Positions 20,645 through 30,942 of a DNA stretch of 64,000 bases are shown here, piece by piece (positions within the stretch are counted from its first letter, which is position 1; each line of letters starts with the position of its first letter). The notes below the pieces were generated by a model. That model searched no databases and was not told the origin of the DNA. It worked only from the letters and a program-made list of their open reading frames with translations. Made by a program: the position numbers and the translations under genes. Source of the stretch: Thermoplasmata archaeon (lineage in GTDB: Archaea; Thermoplasmatota; Thermoplasmata; Lutacidiplasmatales; UBA184); assembly GCA_021798195.1 (NCBI GenBank), contig JAJZYH010000003.1:1-64000 (forward strand). Reading direction: 5' to 3'.

Positions 20645-23600
20645 GTGGAGGAGTATTTCGCCCTCCTGGCCCGGGAGGCCGAGTCGGCCTACCAGGTGGC
20701 CCAGAGGGCACGCGCGGTGGGGATCGACCCCGAACCCACGGTGGAGATCCCCCGCGCCGAGGACATGGCCTCCCGGGTGGAGAAGCTCCTGCGCCGCTGG
20801 AACGTGGAGGGGATCGCGCCCCGGATCCGGGAGCTGGCGCGGACCCTGCCCCGGGAGGAGGTGGCGCTCCGGCTCGCCGAGGAGATCGCCTCGGAGACGT
20901 CCCGGGGGAACCTCGAGACACGTCTCGACACCGCCCTGCGGGTGGGCCTTGCCATCCTCACCGAGGGGATCCTGGTGGCGCCCCTGGAGGGGCTCGCCGA
21001 GATCCACGTGCGGGACGACCCCCAGGGTCCCTACGTGGACCTCTTCTACGCCGGTCCCATCCGGGCGGCCGGGGGGACCGCGCAGGCCCTCTCGGTGCTC
21101 CTCGCGGACCGGGTCCGCCGGTCCCTGGGCCTCGCCGCGTTCCGGGCGACCCCCGAGGAGATCGGGCGGTACAAGGAGGAGATCCCCCTCTACAAGCATC
21201 TCCAGCACCTCCAGTACACGCCGTCCCCCGAGGAGATCGAGACGGTGGTCGCGAACCTCCCGGTGTGCGTGAACGGGGAGGCCACCGAGCGAAAGGAGGA
21301 GGTGAGCGCCTTCCGGGACCTGCCCCGGGTGGGGACCAACGGGATCCGGGGCGGGGCATGCCTCGTCCTCGCCGAGGGGATCTGCCTGAAGGCCCCCAAG
21401 CTCCGGAAGATCGTGGAGCGCCTGGGGATCCCGGGGTGGGAGTTCCTCGCCCACGTGGGGCAGAAGGGGACGCCGGAGAAGGAGGTGGAGGGGAACCTCC
21501 CCAAGTACCTCGCCGAGACGTTGGGAGGAAGGCCCATCCTCTCCTACCCCCGCCGTCCGGGCGGTTTCCGCCTGGTCTACGGCCGTAGCCGCACCACCGG
21601 CCTCGCGGCGGCGGGGGTGAACCCGGCCACCATGGTGGTCCTGCGCCACTTCGTGGCGGTGGGGACGCAGGTGAAGACGGAGTTCCCGGGGAAGGCGGCC
21701 GCGATGAGCCTCTGCGACACGGTGGAGGGTCCCCTCGTTCTCCTGGAGGACGGGTCCCTGGTGGAGGTGAACGATGTGGCGGAGGCGGAACGCCTCCTTC
21801 CGCGGATCCGGCAGATCGTGGACCTGGGGGAGATCCTGTTCTCCTACGGGGAGTTCCTGGAGAACAATCGACCCCTCATGCCGGGCGGCTACAGCCTCGC
21901 CTGGCATCTCGAGACGCTCCGCGCCCGGGGGCTCCCCATCGACCGGCGCGCCCTCGCCCCCACCTTCGACGAGGCCGTCTCCGACGCCCGGGACCACGGG
22001 GTCCCGCTCCATCCCCGCTACAACCTCTTCTGGCATGACCTCGCCCTGGAGGGCCTTGTCCCCCTCTCCCGGACCGTGGAGCGCACGGGCCGCTGGGAGA
22101 ACTCCACGCTCCTCCTTCCCGCCTCCCCCGAGCTCAAGGCGGACCTCATCACCCTGGGGGTTCCCCACCAGGAGGAGGGAGGCACGTTCCGCTTGAGCCC
22201 CCGCCTCGCGCCGTCATTCCTCCGGGGCCTGGGCCTCGAGGTCTCGGAGGGAGCGGTCCGGCGGCGCACCGAACTCCCGGAGATCCTCCCCGGGGCGTTC
22301 TCCTCCACCCTGGAGGTGGTGGAGCACCTCGCGGGGATCCGCATCCGTCCCCGGGGGCCCACCCGGGTGGGCCTTCGGGTGGGCCGCCCGGAGAAGGCCC
22401 GGCAGCGGACCATGGACCCCAACGTCCACGCGCTCTTCCCCGTGGGGGAGGCGGGGGGCCCCCAGAGGTCCCTCGTGAAGCTCCTGGGGTCCCGGGGCCG
22501 CTCGGGGGTCCCCCTCACCCTGGGGATCCGGAAATGCCCCAGCTGCGGCACCCACACCCCGTGGGGGCGCTGCCCGTGCGGGGCGCACACCGCCCCCACG
22601 GGGAAGACGGTGACCCAGGAGGTCCAGGTGGGCTCCCTCTTCGAGGCGTCGGTGAAGAGGCTGGGACTGCCCCACGTCCCCGGTGTGAAGGGGGTGAAAT
22701 CCCTCATGTCCGAGTCCCGCACCCCCGAACCCCTGGAGAAGGGGATCCTCCGCGCCTTCCACGGCGTGAGCGTCTACCAGGACGGCACCGCGCGGTTCGA
22801 TCTCTCCGACCTCCCCCTCACCCACGTGCGCCCGCGGGAGATCGGCCTCTCCGTGGCCACGGCACGCTCCCTGGGGTACCAGCTCGACTGGATGGGAGAC
22901 CCGCTGGAGAGCCCCGACCAGCTGGTGGAGCTCAGGCCCCACGACATCGTGGTCTCGCAGAGCTGCGGGGAATACCTGGTCCGCATCGCCCGCTTCGTGG
23001 ACGACGAGCTGCGTCTCCTCTACGACCTTCCGCCCTTCTACCGCGCCCGCACCCCACAGGAGCTCGTGGGGCAGCTGGTCATCGCGCTGGCCCCCCACAC
23101 CTCGGGAGGGGTCTTGGGCCGCATCCTCGGGTACACCTCGGTGGAAGGGTGCTTCGCCCATCCGGTCTTCCATGCCGCCAAGCGCCGGAACTGCGACGGG
23201 GACGAGGACTCCGTGACCCTCCTCCTCGACGGGCTCCTCAACTTCTCCTTCGCCTACCTTCCCACCACCCGGGGCGCCCTCATGGACAAGCCCCTCGTCC
23301 TCACCACCCGCCTCGACGCGCGGGAGGTGGACAAGGAGGCGCACAACGTGGACCTCTCCCTCCGCTATCCCCTCGCGCTCTACGAGGCGGCCGAGAGGGG
23401 AGCCTCCCCCAAGGAGGTGGAGGGGATCATGGACCTCCTGGGGAAGCGCCTGGGGACCCCCGGCCACGAATGGACGGGGTACGGCTTCACCCACGACACC
23501 ACGGACATCGCCGGAGGGCCCGTCCGTTCCGCCTACCGGGAGGCCCGGGGCATGGAGGCGACGGTGGGGGACTCCCTGGCCCTGGAATCACAGATCCGGG

Positions 23601-24025
23601 CCGTGGACCTCCCCCACGCCGTCGCCCTGGTCCTGAACCACCACTTCCTCCCGGACCTCATGGGGAACCTCAAGAGCTACGCCACCCAGCGGTTCCGGTG
23701 CAAGGCGTGCAACGCCTCCTACCGTCGACCTCCCCTGGACCCGCACTGCACCGCGGAGGTCCGGGGCCAGCGGTGCGGCGGGGACCTCCTGCCCACGGTC
23801 TACCCGGGAGCCGTGACCAAGTACCTGGGCCTTTCCCAGCGCCTGGCCAAGACCCATGACGTGTCGCATTACCTGCGCCAGCGCCTGGACCTCCTCGAGG
23901 GATCCCTCGCCACGCTCTTCCCGGTGGAGAAGGCCTCCACCGCGTCGCTGGAACGCTACGCGGACCCGGGGTCCCCGACGCCGGGGGAGGAGGAGCCACC
24001 TCCGGAAGCACCGGAAGACCAGTGA
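20645..24025 (+). CDS. polC: Archaeal DNA polymerase II (PolD) large subunit DP2, no intein
   Basis: DLFYAGPIRAAGGTAQALSVLLAD, HPVFHAAKRRNCDGDEDSVTLLLDGLLNFSFAYLP, Zn motifs CPSCGTHTPWGRCPCG and CKACNASYRRPPLD..C..RCGG; 1126 aa. Confidence 0.96.
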   Translation: MEEYFALLAREAESAYQVAQRARAVGIDPEPTVEIPRAEDMASRVEKLLRRWNVEGIAPRIRELARTLPREEVALRLAEEIASETSRGNLETRLDTALRVGLAILTEGILVAPLEGLAEIHVRDDPQGPYVDLFYAGPIRAAGGTAQALSVLLADRVRRSLGLAAFRATPEEIGRYKEEIPLYKHLQHLQYTPSPEEIETVVANLPVCVNGEATERKEEVSAFRDLPRVGTNGIRGGACLVLAEGICLKAPKLRKIVERLGIPGWEFLAHVGQKGTPEKEVEGNLPKYLAETLGGRPILSYPRRPGGFRLVYGRSRTTGLAAAGVNPATMVVLRHFVAVGTQVKTEFPGKAAAMSLCDTVEGPLVLLEDGSLVEVNDVAEAERLLPRIRQIVDLGEILFSYGEFLENNRPLMPGGYSLAWHLETLRARGLPIDRRALAPTFDEAVSDARDHGVPLHPRYNLFWHDLALEGLVPLSRTVERTGRWENSTLLLPASPELKADLITLGVPHQEEGGTFRLSPRLAPSFLRGLGLEVSEGAVRRRTELPEILPGAFSSTLEVVEHLAGIRIRPRGPTRVGLRVGRPEKARQRTMDPNVHALFPVGEAGGPQRSLVKLLGSRGRSGVPLTLGIRKCPSCGTHTPWGRCPCGAHTAPTGKTVTQEVQVGSLFEASVKRLGLPHVPGVKGVKSLMSESRTPEPLEKGILRAFHGVSVYQDGTARFDLSDLPLTHVRPREIGLSVATARSLGYQLDWMGDPLESPDQLVELRPHDIVVSQSCGEYLVRIARFVDDELRLLYDLPPFYRARTPQELVGQLVIALAPHTSGGVLGRILGYTSVEGCFAHPVFHAAKRRNCDGDEDSVTLLLDGLLNFSFAYLPTTRGALMDKPLVLTTRLDAREVDKEAHNVDLSLRYPLALYEAAERGASPKEVEGIMDLLGKRLGTPGHEWTGYGFTHDTTDIAGGPVRSAYREARGMEATVGDSLALESQIRAVDLPHAVALVLNHHFLPDLMGNLKSYATQRFRCKACNASYRRPPLDPHCTAEVRGQRCGGDLLPTVYPGAVTKYLGLSQRLAKTHDVSHYLRQRLDLLEGSLATLFPVEKASTASLERYADPGSPTPGEEEPPPEAPEDQ

Positions 24026-24057: not shown

Positions 24058-24064
24058 CTTTAAT
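24058..24064 (+). promoter_or_regulatory. TATA box for tRNA-Arg
   Basis: CTTTAAT centred about 26 nt upstream of the tRNA 5' end in an otherwise GC-rich region. Confidence 0.6.
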
Positions 24065-24086: not shown

Positions 24087-24196
24087 GGGCTCGTGGGGTA
24101 GTTTGGACTATCCTGATGGCCTTCGGAGCCATCGACCCGGGTTCGAAGCTCAGCGCCCCCCGAGGGGACGTTGCGGCGAAACTCCCGGCGAGCCCG
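24087..24196 (+). tRNA. tRNA-Arg(TCG) interrupted by a 35-nt intron in the T-loop
   Basis: GGGCTCG acceptor (24087-24093); D-arm GGGT...ATCC; anticodon stem-loop ATGGC-CTTCGGA-GCCAT (anticodon TCG); T-stem CCGGG + TTCGAA; after the intron T+CCCGG, then CGAGCCC pairing fully with GGGCTCG; discriminator G. Confidence 0.88.
24148..24182 (+). other. Archaeal tRNA intron with bulge-helix-bulge at position 59/60
   Basis: TTCG-[AA|G] pairs with CGAA-[AC|T]: 4-bp helix flanked by two 3-nt bulges. Removal regenerates TTCGAAT T-loop, CCGGG/CCCGG T-stem and a fully paired acceptor stem. Confidence 0.88.
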
Positions 24197-24288: not shown

Positions 24289-25830
24289 TCAGCCCCCGGC
24301 CTCTTTCCGGAGGGTACAGATGGACTCCCGGAGCCGGAACGTCCGCCGCTGACCGGAGCGGCGGGAGCGCGCCGGCTCGAACCGCACCACCCGGAACCCC
24401 CGGAGACGGGCGAGTCGGGCCAACAGGAGGTCGCTGGGAATGTAGACCCCGGCCATGAGGGAGTCTCCGTTCACCACCACGAAATGGCCCCCGGGCCGGA
24501 GCGCCTCATGGACCCGCCCCAGCACCGCGTACATGTCGTCGAAGTACCGGCGGACCAGCTCCGCCATGTCCCTCCTCCGGTAGCCTTCCTTCCCCCGGAG
24601 GCTCTCCCGGAGCGCCGCGACCACGTCCCGGATCCATGGTTCCTCCGCCACGTCGGGGGCGGGACGGTGCTCCGCCACCGCCCGGCGGGAGACGTTGTCA
24701 CAGGTCACCATGGATTCCTTGAGGCGGGAGAGCTCCTCGTAGGAACGGGTCATGTCGAGCCAGGTGAGCTCCAGCTTGTAGTTCATCACGTAATCCATCC
24801 CGTTCACGTACGGGGGGCTCGTGATGGCGAGGTCCATGCTCCCCGCGGGGACCTTGACCTCCCGGGCATCCTCCGCCCAGAGGACGGGAGGCGGTCCCCA
24901 CCGCTCCCGGAAGGAGGCGAGCCATCGGAGGTCCTCCTGGATCCGACCCACGGCCCCCAGGAACTCCTGGAACGGCCGTCCCCCCGGCACCGGAGGCTTC
25001 CGGGCGTACCCCAGGCACGGGGCCCGCTTGAGCTGGCTCGAGGGGACGAGGATCGACGCGAAGGCCACGGTGAGCAGGTCCCGGAGGGGCCCCTCCGGGA
25101 CCTCCCAGAGCTGCGCCTTCAGCCGCCGGAGGGAGTCCAGCGCCTCCCGGGAGAACTGGTCATGGAGACGGGAGAGGAACGGGGCAGGGGCGAGGGGTCC
25201 CTCCCGGGCAAGCCGCACCACGTCGCGCGCCCAGCGCCCCAGGTCCTCCGGGGATGCCTCCCAGTGGCTCTTCGCCCGGACGGCGAGGGCGGCGATGGGC
25301 ATCCGCTCCACGCCAAATGCGGCACACCCGCGCAACCGGGCCTGGACAAGGACCGTGCCGCTCCCGCAGAACGGGTCCAGGACCCGCGTCCCGGGTCCGG
25401 CCCCGAACCGCTCCAGGACCCGGTCCACGAACCCGGCGGAGAACCCCTGCACGTAGGGCCACCATCGGTGGACGGGGCGTTCCTCGTTCCCCCGGAACTG
25501 GATGTCCCCCACATACGGTTCCGGGAGAAGGGAGCATTCCCGGGAGAAGCGAGAAACGTAGTCGTCCGGCCCGGGGATGCCGGTGCGGGCGGAGGGGTCC
25601 TCGGCGTACTTCCCCAGGACCCAGAGGCCCCGACCCATCCGGCGGAGCGGGGCCCGGAGGGAGAGCTGGGAGAGACCCTCCGGCACCGTCGCCGGCGGGA
25701 GGCCCGTCTTCGCGGCGAGCTGCCTCTCCGTGAGCCCCATCCATCCCGCCGCTTCCAGGGCGGCCTTGAGCCTCTCCACGGGGGCGGGATCCCCCCCCGC
25801 CGCCGCTTCCCCGGCGCCGAACCCGGTCAC
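24289..25830 (-). CDS. SPPY-type DNA (N4-cytosine/N6-adenine) methyltransferase with N-terminal wHTH-like segment
   Basis: TRVLDPFCGSGTVLVQARLRGC (motif I) precedes MDLAITSPPYVNGMDYVMNYKLELTWLD (motif IV); N-terminal GLTERQLAAKTGLPPATVPEGLSQL. Confidence 0.8.
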   Translation of the reverse strand: MTGFGAGEAAAGGDPAPVERLKAALEAAGWMGLTERQLAAKTGLPPATVPEGLSQLSLRAPLRRMGRGLWVLGKYAEDPSARTGIPGPDDYVSRFSRECSLLPEPYVGDIQFRGNEERPVHRWWPYVQGFSAGFVDRVLERFGAGPGTRVLDPFCGSGTVLVQARLRGCAAFGVERMPIAALAVRAKSHWEASPEDLGRWARDVVRLAREGPLAPAPFLSRLHDQFSREALDSLRRLKAQLWEVPEGPLRDLLTVAFASILVPSSQLKRAPCLGYARKPPVPGGRPFQEFLGAVGRIQEDLRWLASFRERWGPPPVLWAEDAREVKVPAGSMDLAITSPPYVNGMDYVMNYKLELTWLDMTRSYEELSRLKESMVTCDNVSRRAVAEHRPAPDVAEEPWIRDVVAALRESLRGKEGYRRRDMAELVRRYFDDMYAVLGRVHEALRPGGHFVVVNGDSLMAGVYIPSDLLLARLARLRGFRVVRFEPARSRRSGQRRTFRLRESICTLRKEAGG

Positions 25831-26731: not shown

Positions 26732-27051
26732 GGACGCCGCCGCGAGCCGTCGGGGGGTCTTGAACCCTTTGCGACCTCGGAGAGGGAACGTTCGCCCTGC
26801 GGGACGGAGACCGTTCCTCCGGGCCATGGATCGCTCCGTCGGGTGCCCACCGATAGGTCCACTTCCACATCCGGTCCCCCCGGCCCATCTCCCCCCCCGT
26901 GTCCGTTCCACAGCCAGACCTCTCACCGTTTGGGGAGACACAAGGGATCCCGCCCGAAGGTGCGCGAAGGAGATCTCGGAACGGAGGTTCCCGGGACGAT
27001 CCGCCACTTCCGATTCATTTATCGCATAACGTTTCCCTAACCTTCCCGCGC

Positions 27052-30000
27052 ATGGACCCCCCCAGGAGCGTTCCCTTCCGGCATGTCCTCCGGTCCCGTC
27101 GGCGCCCACCGGTCCGAGCCGGTCTTGTCCTCGTCCTGGGGATCGCCATGGCGTTCACCGCCATCCCCCCGTGGGGCATCCCTTCCGGCCCATTCCCCGG
27201 TAGACTGACCCCGATCTCCATCCGGGATGGAGGAACGTCCCCCGCGGGGACCGCTTCCTTCAACCTCACCGGCTTCGTCCTGGGCCGGGCCGCCTCGGGC
27301 GAGGCCCCTCTGGGGAACGTCCCCGTCCGCCTGTGGGCCCAGGGGAACGGGCCCTTCAACGCCCCGCTGGTGGACGAGACCACGACCGCGTCCAACGGGA
27401 GCTACGGGTTCCCGTCGGTGCCGGCCGGCAACTACTGGGTCGCCGCGGTACCGGCGAACGGCTTCGGGGGCGAGGGACTCCCCGTCTCCGATTCCACGAA
27501 CGGCGTGACCCTCCACCTCAACGTGACCGTGTTCCCCCAGATCCCCTACGACAACCGGACCTTCGTGCTCCCCCACTGGGACAACTGGAGCCAGTACGAC
27601 GGCGGCTACCCGGACCAGGCGATGAAACCGGTGCTCTCCTGGACCCAGGATGGCGCCTTCTACGTCAATGCCTCGAGCCTCCTGGTCTTCTATTCCTTCG
27701 CCAACGGGACCGCCTATCCCATCGCCCCCTGGCTCCATCTCTACGAGAACATCATGGACTACGGAGGCTTCGACAACGAGCTCTTCACCACCCAGGACGG
27801 GTCCTACCTCTACGAGTTCGGATGCCTCACGAGCTGTGGGTCCTCGTCGACCATCACCTTCTACGCGGTGAACGTGACCACCGGGGCCCACGTGGAGTAC
27901 AACTTCTCCGGGGTGACCGACGCCAATCTCGTCACCAATGGCCAGATCGACATGATCGGGCAGGACGGTTCCCACTTCATCGCCACACTCATCGAGTCCG
28001 ACGGGACGGTCCTGGGCTACAACCTCCTCAACCGGACGCAGTGGACCCTGGGCCACCTGTCGTTCTTCGAGGCGAACAACATCTACTGGGAGGCGTACCT
28101 CAACGCCTACGTCGACGTGCAGGCGGAGGGGAGCAGCGCCGACGGCATCGTGGAGTACCAGCTCCAGGGACCGGCGCCGGGAACGCGGCTCGTCCCCGTG
28201 TACACCGGGACCTACGGGAGCGGCTACGTGTCCAACGGGGTGGACGGGACCCTCCTCAACGTCACCAGCCATACCCTCGTGGTGGCGGAGGCATCCAACA
28301 ACCCCAACATCGCCGCCATCCTCTGGGAGGAGTTTGGCTACAATGCCTCCACGGGGATCCTCACGGGGATGATCGCCTCCAACGACAACCCCTCGGGGAC
28401 GGTCTCGGGCTCGAACTATGACATCAACGGCGCCCCCTGCGGATGCGCCAGCGAGGTGGAGCGGCCCACCATCGTGAGCGATGGGCCAGGGTTCAACGTC
28501 GCCTGGAACCCCACCTTCAACAACAGCTCCTGGATCGCGAACCCGGGGGGGCAGGGCTGGATCGACACCAACGTCACCCCCATCAATCCCGTGAGCGCGC
28601 AGCACTTCGATGCGTTCTCCACGCGCAGCGCCCCCGGCTTCTTCCGGAACACGTCGTACCTCCTCTCCAACATGAACGCGTTCTGCGCAGGGAACTCGGG
28701 GAACGGGACCCGGTGCAACATCGACGGGGATTACGGATCCCCGGTGGGAACGGTCTGGTACCTCTGGAGGACCGGTGCTCCCGAGTTCCCCTTCCCCGCC
28801 ACTTCGGCTCTCGCCCAGGTAGGGGCGCCGGGAGCGCCCCTCCTCCGGAGCGTGACGCACCAGGCGACCAACGTGACCGTGGCGTGGATGCCTCCCAGCT
28901 CCGGGGCCCAGCCCATCGTGAACTGGACCCTCTTCTGGGGCCTTCACAACGGGTCCTGGACGCACGCCCGGGCCCTCTTCGGATCCAACCGGACCACCAC
29001 GGTGACGGACCTCCTCCCCCAGACCACCTATTTCTTCGCCCTCGAAGCGTGGAACCTCCACTGGCACGGACCGCTCGCGTACTTCCAGGAGACCACCGGA
29101 GCGGCGGCGGGAACGTACAACGTGACCCTCGCGGAGACCGGTCTTCCCCCGGGGACTCCCTGGACCGCCACGTTGGGAGGCTCTTCCAACTCCTCCTCCA
29201 CCCCCGAGATCGGGTTTGCGGTCCCCAACGGGACCTACCCGTTCCAGGTGGATTCCCCGGTCCCGGGCCCGTGGGGGACCCGGTACATCGCCATCCCTTC
29301 CTCGGGGAACGTGACGGTGGCCGGCGGACCCCGGACCGTGAACATCTCCTTTGCGCTCCAGTATCACCTCGGGACGTCCGTGTTCCCCTCCGGCGCCGGG
29401 AACGTCGCACCCGCACCCGGATGGTACGCCGCCGGGGCCCGGGTGAACCTCACGGCGTGGGGGGCCCGTGGCTCCGCGTTCTCCTTCTGGTCCGGCACGG
29501 GGACCGGCAACTATTCGGGCCCCGACGACCCGGCCTTCGTGACCATGGAGGCGCCCGTGAACGAGTCGGCCTATTTCACCCCGGAGACAAACTATCCCCT
29601 CTCGTTCGTCTGGACCAACCCTTCCCCGGGGATCACCTGGTCCGTGGACGTGGGGGGCATCTCCATCTCCTCCACCGCCTCCACGATCACGTTCAACGAG
29701 ACCAACGGGACCTATCCCTACCTTGTGGCGAGCCCCCTATCGGTGGCGCCCGGCGCCCGGGTGGTCCTCACCCCCGATTCGGGCACGGTCTCCATCTCGG
29801 CGAGCCCCGCCACGGTCTCCGTCGCCGGACAGACCCAGTACTCCGAGGGGATCTCCGGCACACCCGCCGCGGATGGGCTCGTCTATCCGGCGAGCGGGTG
29901 GTACGACGCGGGGGGCTCGCTCACCCTGCTGGCGTACCCGGATCCCGGGTTCCGGTTCCTGGGATGGACGGGATTGGGAACCGGATCCTACAGCGGGCCC

Positions 30001-30942
30001 GAGGATCCCCTTCCCCTTTCCACCAACAGCTCCTGGGAAGAGCTGGCACTCTTCGGCCCCCTGTCCACATATCCGGTGCGCTTCCGCGAGACCGGGCTTC
30101 CGTCCGGGACTCCCTGGTCCGTGGATCTCAACGGGATCGTCCTCGCCTCCTCCACCGACGAGGTGACCGTGGGGGAGCCCAACGGCTCCTGGGTCTATCT
30201 TGTGGGAGGCCCCCCCGGATACGACGCGTCGCCCGCCTCCGGCATCCTGTCCATCGGGGGGGAGGGGGTCCTCGTCAACGTGACGTTCACGCCCATCCCC
30301 GTCACGGTGTCGTTCTCGCTGGCCCCCGCGGGCTGCGGGGAACTCTTCCTCAACGGGTCCCCGATCTCCAACGGCTCCCGGCTCGCCCTCCTTCCGGGGA
30401 ACTATACCCTGCAGGCGGTCTCCTGTCCGGGTCACCTCGTCGTCGCCGGCGACATCCGGGCATCGGGGAACCTCTCCATCACCGTCGGAGGCACCTTGCC
30501 TCCGTCCTTCCAGTTGGATGTCCGGGGCAATGGGTCCGTCGCCGTCTTCTTCCCTTCCGCCCCGGACGTGGGCTGGATCTCCGGAACCATCACGCCCGCG
30601 GATGCCCATGTCCTCCTCAACGGGACCCCGGTCCCCCTCACCGCCTCCGGGGGATTCAACCAGTCGGTGGCCCCCGGGTGGCACGTCCTCACCGCCTCCG
30701 CCCCCGGATTCGCCTCCCAGGAGGGGGAGATGTTCGTGGCGCAGGGGGAGATCGTCCGGATAGAGTGGAACCTCACGCAAAACGTGTCGACGCCGTCCGG
30801 GGGTTTCCTCGGAACCCTGGGACCCCCGGAGACGGCGGGCCTCCTCGTCGTCCTCGCCGCCGCGGGGGTCGCCGCGGGGATCTGGATCGGGCGAAGGCAC
30901 AGAAGGCACCCGCCCGCGGGCGGGGATTGGCCGAGGGATTGA
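27052..30942 (+). CDS. Giant cell-surface protein: signal peptide, CarboxypepD-reg-like domain, FN3, alternating repeat modules, PEGA-like modules, C-terminal TM anchor
   Basis: RAGLVLVLGIAMAFTAIP signal; GNVPVRLWAQGNGPFNAPLVDETTTASNGSYGFPSVPAGNYWVAAVP; FN3 at VTVAWMPPSSGAQPIVNWTLFW; C-terminal GLLVVLAAAGVAAGIWIGRRHRRH; many NxS/T sequons. Likely start ATG 27052 below an AT-rich promoter (ATTCATTTATCGCATAACG). Confidence 0.85.
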   Translation: MDPPRSVPFRHVLRSRRRPPVRAGLVLVLGIAMAFTAIPPWGIPSGPFPGRLTPISIRDGGTSPAGTASFNLTGFVLGRAASGEAPLGNVPVRLWAQGNGPFNAPLVDETTTASNGSYGFPSVPAGNYWVAAVPANGFGGEGLPVSDSTNGVTLHLNVTVFPQIPYDNRTFVLPHWDNWSQYDGGYPDQAMKPVLSWTQDGAFYVNASSLLVFYSFANGTAYPIAPWLHLYENIMDYGGFDNELFTTQDGSYLYEFGCLTSCGSSSTITFYAVNVTTGAHVEYNFSGVTDANLVTNGQIDMIGQDGSHFIATLIESDGTVLGYNLLNRTQWTLGHLSFFEANNIYWEAYLNAYVDVQAEGSSADGIVEYQLQGPAPGTRLVPVYTGTYGSGYVSNGVDGTLLNVTSHTLVVAEASNNPNIAAILWEEFGYNASTGILTGMIASNDNPSGTVSGSNYDINGAPCGCASEVERPTIVSDGPGFNVAWNPTFNNSSWIANPGGQGWIDTNVTPINPVSAQHFDAFSTRSAPGFFRNTSYLLSNMNAFCAGNSGNGTRCNIDGDYGSPVGTVWYLWRTGAPEFPFPATSALAQVGAPGAPLLRSVTHQATNVTVAWMPPSSGAQPIVNWTLFWGLHNGSWTHARALFGSNRTTTVTDLLPQTTYFFALEAWNLHWHGPLAYFQETTGAAAGTYNVTLAETGLPPGTPWTATLGGSSNSSSTPEIGFAVPNGTYPFQVDSPVPGPWGTRYIAIPSSGNVTVAGGPRTVNISFALQYHLGTSVFPSGAGNVAPAPGWYAAGARVNLTAWGARGSAFSFWSGTGTGNYSGPDDPAFVTMEAPVNESAYFTPETNYPLSFVWTNPSPGITWSVDVGGISISSTASTITFNETNGTYPYLVASPLSVAPGARVVLTPDSGTVSISASPATVSVAGQTQYSEGISGTPAADGLVYPASGWYDAGGSLTLLAYPDPGFRFLGWTGLGTGSYSGPEDPLPLSTNSSWEELALFGPLSTYPVRFRETGLPSGTPWSVDLNGIVLASSTDEVTVGEPNGSWVYLVGGPPGYDASPASGILSIGGEGVLVNVTFTPIPVTVSFSLAPAGCGELFLNGSPISNGSRLALLPGNYTLQAVSCPGHLVVAGDIRASGNLSITVGGTLPPSFQLDVRGNGSVAVFFPSAPDVGWISGTITPADAHVLLNGTPVPLTASGGFNQSVAPGWHVLTASAPGFASQEGEMFVAQGEIVRIEWNLTQNVSTPSGGFLGTLGPPETAGLLVVLAAAGVAAGIWIGRRHRRHPPAGGDWPRD
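29116..30294 (+). repeat. Protein repeat array: three 'ETGLPxGTPW' modules interleaved with two InlB-B-like 'GxWYxAG...F..W.G.GTGxYSGPxDP' modules
   Basis: YNVTLAETGLPPGTPWTATLGG (29116), YPLSFVWTNPSPGITWSVDVGG (~29592), YPVRFRETGLPSGTPWSVDLNG (~30070); between them APGWYAAGARVNLTAW...FWSGTGTGNYSGPDDP and ASGWYDAGGSLTLLAY...GWTGLGTGSYSGPEDP. Confidence 0.85.

Follow-up and report, generated by a model that had tools for sequence, protein, structure and literature searches.

T-loop introns at position 59/60 in tRNA-Arg(UCG) and other tRNA genes of a soil archaeon of the Thermoplasmatota

The tRNA-Arg(UCG) locus

The analysed window, a stretch of 64,000 nucleotides from a soil archaeon (Thermoplasmata archaeon, Thermoplasmatota, Ca. 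Lutacidiplasmatales), contains a tRNA-Arg(UCG) gene whose T-loop is interrupted by the sequence GCTCAGCGCCCCCCGAGGGGACGTTGCGGCGAAAC (24148-24182). Features of the gene are given in Table 1. The gene encoding the large subunit of DNA polymerase D (20645-24025) ends 61 bases before it. The adjoining gene on its other side (24289-25830, minus strand) has DNA/RNA methyltransferase-type Pfam matches (N6_N4_Mtase, UPF0020), and a 1347-aa open frame (26899-30942, plus strand) with repeated ETGLPPGTPW-type segments encodes, by appearance, a large secreted or surface protein.

Table 1. Coordinates of the tRNA-Arg(UCG) gene and associated elements in the window
Feature	Position	Strand	Remarks
TATA-like box TTTAAT	24059..24064	+	-28 from tRNA 5' end
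tRNA-Arg(UCG) gene, exons and intron	24087..24196	+	CCA not encoded; covariance model R1, 92.9 bits
Exon 1, tRNA positions 1-59	24087..24147	+	3' end reads ...CCGGG-TTCG-AA
Anticodon UCG	24123..24125	+	ARAGORN, anticodon at position 37
35-nt intron between positions 59 and 60	24148..24182	+	Seamless intronless orthologs; intron sequence at this site varies
Exon 2: T60, T-stem CCCGG, acceptor CGAGCCC, discriminator G	24183..24196	+	
5' bulge AA/G	24146..24148	+	Predicted 5' splice site 24147/24148
3' bulge AC/T	24181..24183	+	Predicted 3' splice site 24182/24183
Central helix, exon strand TTCG (positions 54-57)	24142..24145	+	Pairs with 24177-24180; co-varies, 147 distinct introns
Central helix, intron strand CGAA	24177..24180	+	Pairs with TTCG 24142-24145
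Intron-internal hairpin (h')	24149..24176	+	Fold -13.8 kcal/mol

The intron boundaries cannot be slid in either direction: the intron G stands against an exon T, and the exon A against an intron C. Removal of the intron in silico yields seven acceptor pairs, five T-stem pairs and the T-loop TTCGAAT, the same sequence as in intronless orthologs. The original prediction was exact to the base: it named the right tRNA, placed the intron correctly at 59/60, recognized the 3-4-3 bulge-helix-bulge (BHB) and anticipated the arms restored by excision. A pattern describing the whole architecture has one match in the window (the gene itself) and none in first-order Markov sequence totalling 9.6 Mb. Two other kinds of interrupted gene were ruled out: a split or permuted tRNA gene, as both exons are in order and 35 nt apart, and a self-splicing intron, by the length of 35 nt and the absence of an Rfam match.

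The exon and intron strands TTCG and CGAA, together with the two bulges, form a strict 3-4-3 BHB at this gene and not one of the relaxed forms (hBH or HBh'). The motif had been called perfect, which holds for this pairing and not for the predicted fold, as the RNAfold minimum does not contain the motif and the inner helix of the intron has a bulge. Forcing the BHB costs 1.6 kcal/mol (-57.6 versus -59.2 kcal/mol), an open internal loop being slightly preferred.

Conservation of the intron site and of the central helix

The ortholog set comprises 78 loci: one from the window and 77 found by scanning named GTDB contigs with an exact pattern. Almost all of these contigs carry the label Thermoplasmata archaeon; Ca. 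Lutacidiplasma silvani and UBA184 are among them. An intron of variable sequence, 23-38 nt long, is present at exactly the same site in 71 of these loci; in the other seven (L107, L109, L126, L127, L147, L162 and L163) it is absent and the junction TTCGAA/TCCCGG is seamless, which proves the insertion. The TATA-like box is conserved as well, with an A+T fraction of 0.84 at -28 to -25 versus approximately 0.2 around it in the 78 loci. All four central BHB pairs are formed in 66 of the 71 intron-bearing loci. The exceptions are four relatives from genus g2 with G57 opposite A, and L160, where the first pair is missing; hence not every intron-bearing locus has the strict 4-bp helix. Mapped on the EndA tree, the presence of the intron changes twice in the family, both main clades having members with introns. 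The simplest reading is two intron losses (in genus g3 and in genome G018), on the assumptions that the root is correct and that EndA represents the species tree.

Pairing between the T-loop and the intron was also analysed over all introns collected at this site. C56 is opposite G in 149 of 149 introns. Of the 147 distinct introns, 102 have G57, which faces C in 96 of them, and 45 have A57, whose partner is U (19), G (23), A (2) or C (1). Covariation at position 57 has a Fisher p of about 1e-29 for all introns and about 1e-16 when those of Lutacidiplasmatales tRNA-Arg(UCG) are left out, the sequences being related and not independent. In an alignment of ten sequences, both sides had changed in 25 of 33 pairs, a result matched by no shuffle, and 93% of the 147 intron hairpins were more stable than shuffles at z < -1. 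In the host's family, T-loops reading TTCA (L093, L095, L100, L101 and others) mostly have an A57-G mismatch as the fourth BHB pair; outside it the partner of A57 is mostly U, A-U being the rule.

Splicing enzymes and other interrupted tRNA genes

The genome contains one EndA gene (C44:5504-6628), encoding two pairs of N- and C-terminal domains, with the Y/H/K region intact and the catalytic half C-terminal; relatives likewise have one full-length EndA gene per genome. From its sequence the enzyme is of the single alpha'-type (homodimer-type), with a layout closest to that of Archaeoglobus alpha', also known from Thermoplasma, and it would assemble as a homodimer. A single protein of this layout does not fit the (alpha-beta)2 or epsilon2 types. 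The usual association of non-canonical introns with a heteromeric EndA, to which the original prediction referred, does not hold in this genome. Reviews class alpha'2 EndA among narrow, strict-BHB enzymes (PMC6379350), so that this intron, unusual in position yet strict in its BHB, is a fitting substrate. The homodimeric EndA of Ferroplasma (Thermoplasmatota) cleaves minimal BHB substrates, and homodimeric forms have been reported to cleave BHL-like motifs (PMC8707768). The ligase RtcB is encoded by one gene (C53:42337-43641, 550 bits).

A set of 40 tRNA genes, possibly incomplete, was compiled for the genome with R1, a covariance model built in this analysis, together with the Rfam tRNA model and a blast match. 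In it, 15 genes bear introns, compared with the approximately 8% quoted for Euryarchaeota (PMC4090602). Of the 16 introns found, ten are at 59/60, in the genes for Arg(UCG), Arg(UCU), His, Asp, Gln(CUG), Ala(GGC), Gly(UCC), Lys(UUU), Ser(GCU) and Ser(GGA). Far from the oddity that it had seemed, the Arg(UCG) gene thus shares its intron position with at least nine others, several of which, His among them, have A57 opposite G and so a 3-bp helix with a mismatch. By inspection, apparent D-loop introns occur in Arg(GCG) (L098, G000:C18:58690-59050), Leu(UAG) (L099, G000:C38:30880-31250) and Lys(UUU) (L102, G000:C47:860-1250), the last gene having both D-loop and T-loop introns; relatives have comparable insertions in the D-loop (L223, L242, L245 and L248). 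Apparent introns in the anticodon loop, usual in archaea, were seen in tRNA-Met, tRNA-Tyr and tRNA-Leu(UAA) (L022, L025 and L029).

The tRNA-Arg(UCG) gene had been expected to escape a simple tRNA scan. ARAGORN does report it, but with a wrong 3' end (24161) and without the intron, and it makes no call at six of eight other 59/60 loci, given as short loci. The Rfam tRNA model scores the gene at 28.5 bits, slightly below the 29-bit cut-off. A second, intact tRNA-Arg(UCG) gene, one of the observations named beforehand as counting against the original prediction, was sought by family and covariance model searches and not found in the assembly, which is 95.7% complete, so that a further copy could be missing from it.

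Covariance model R1 has matches in all 61 family genomes searched, although it also matches intronless tRNAs, so that a match alone does not indicate an intron. Outside the family, a 59/60 intron could be parsed at 19 of 20 places in the class and 20 of 20 in the wider phylum, in tRNAs for Arg, His, Pro, Glu, Gln, Asp and Lys; these places were picked as best matches of long extent, and the counts give no rate. The relative G003, whose genome is 100% complete, has eleven 59/60 introns, one of them in a tRNA that is Gly(UCC) by its loop. A short 59/60 intron of 20-24 nt was observed in tRNA-Arg(UCU) of three family f8 genomes from the same class (L265, L266 and L267), two of which are single-contig. 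Hairpins of different isotypes are 65-77% similar in the GC-rich family, which may reflect composition only. Outside it, one Pro and one Arg intron are 75% identical with exons 62% identical, and in genome G209 the 59/60 introns of Glu(CUC) (L254) and Asp(GUC) (L258) are 78% identical outside the BHB strand with exons 80% identical. Both pairs are suggestive, at most, of intron copying between tRNA genes.

Proposed splicing at position 59/60 and relation to other archaeal introns

Given the gene with its exact boundaries, the BHB, their conservation, the promoter and the presence of EndA and RtcB, we consider it about 95% probable that the locus is a functional tRNA-Arg(UCG) gene with an archaeal 59/60 intron of the proteinaceous type, spliced by EndA and RtcB. 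The gene would be transcribed from its own TATA-box promoter, and the 3' part of the intron, CGAA, would pair with TTCG of the T-loop into a strict BHB. A homodimeric alpha'2 EndA would then cleave at A59/G and C/U60, and RtcB would ligate the exons, joining GGGTTCGAA to TCCCGGCGAGCCC and restoring the T-loop, T-stem and acceptor stem. The sequence TTCR, which provides one BHB half, appears to be near-universal in T-loops; therefore, the same kind of intron could be accommodated at 59/60 in many tRNAs, and this is probably why the genome has ten of them. Tentatively, and at rather less than even odds, we propose that 59/60 is an intron site of long standing throughout the phylum Thermoplasmatota, served by a narrow alpha'2 EndA since the T-loop TTCR gives half of a strict BHB, with introns able to move between tRNA genes at this one site without change of the exons.

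Several alternatives were considered. First, a real intron could have a role of its own, either as excised RNA, possibly in circular form, or in timing, splicing being a control step that precedes T-loop folding, modification and reading by RNase P. The T-loop forms the tRNA elbow, which is where the site lies, and the intron is found in most of the orthologous loci (71 of 78) and in each of the two main clades, with two absences inferred on the EndA tree; however, neither its sequence nor its length is conserved beyond the pairing, and some relatives do without it, making such a role improbable. Second, the part of the tRNA gene containing 59/60 often serves as an attachment site, and T-loop introns might be retained because they break the 3' tRNA sequence recognized by the integrases of mobile elements. 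Randau and Soll suggested protection of this sort for split tRNA genes, according to the account in PMC4033280. One tyrosine recombinase (PF00589) is encoded in the genome; its size and kind are shared with a relative, and it does not adjoin a known interrupted tRNA gene. We regard this explanation, too, as unlikely. Finally, a decayed pseudogene or an assembly error, with an insertion that broke the T-arm, would account for the poor tRNA that is all ARAGORN and Rfam detect, yet it is extremely improbable given intact exons, a conserved promoter, no replacement gene found, and an insertion whose position is identical to the base across 71 orthologous loci and which keeps the BHB strand while the hairpin varies.

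Position 59/60 is a listed non-canonical tRNA intron site (PMC4090602), and BHB motifs in the T-arm are treated as known (PMC6379350, PMC8707768). Sets of tRNA genes rich in introns have been described for Thermoproteales and for Asgard archaea (PMC4033280, PMC11291895). Introns are not mentioned in the paper that named Lutacidiplasmatales. Within the literature consulted, the number and spread of 59/60 introns in Thermoplasmatota are new, an earlier mention in Thermoplasma or Picrophilus being possible. Known archaeal 59/60 introns, in particular those of Thermoproteales, are similar in the site, the BHB principle, the EndA substrate, a length of tens of nucleotides and occurrence in several tRNAs per genome. 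The introns described here differ in their host, a member of Thermoplasmatota whose single EndA is of the alpha' type, in the share that occupies one site (10 of the 16 found in this genome), and in the BHBs at tRNA-Arg(UCG), which are mostly strict 3-4-3 and not relaxed. Canonical 37/38 introns share the strict 3-4-3 BHB and an EndA of narrow specificity, whereas the introns described here lie in the T-loop, whose TTCR, and not the anticodon region, contributes the exon strand of the helix. The Asgard Atabeyarchaeia and Freyarchaeia are likewise soil archaea with many tRNA genes having introns at non-canonical positions, although 92-95% of their tRNA genes are interrupted, more than half of them by several introns (PMC11291895), compared with 15 of 40 found here.

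Many tRNA genes of Thermoplasmatota are hidden from simple scanners or misread by them, which bears on tRNA counts, on estimates of completeness and on claims that a tRNA is missing. The wider interest lies in the concentration of introns on one site across Thermoplasmatota with an alpha'-type EndA. Ten 59/60 introns in a genome with a single EndA of this type indicate that a non-canonical position and a relaxed BHB are separate matters. If the proposed phylum-wide use of the site is true, it would represent a route of intron expansion apart from the one through broad-specificity EndA proposed for Thermoproteales.
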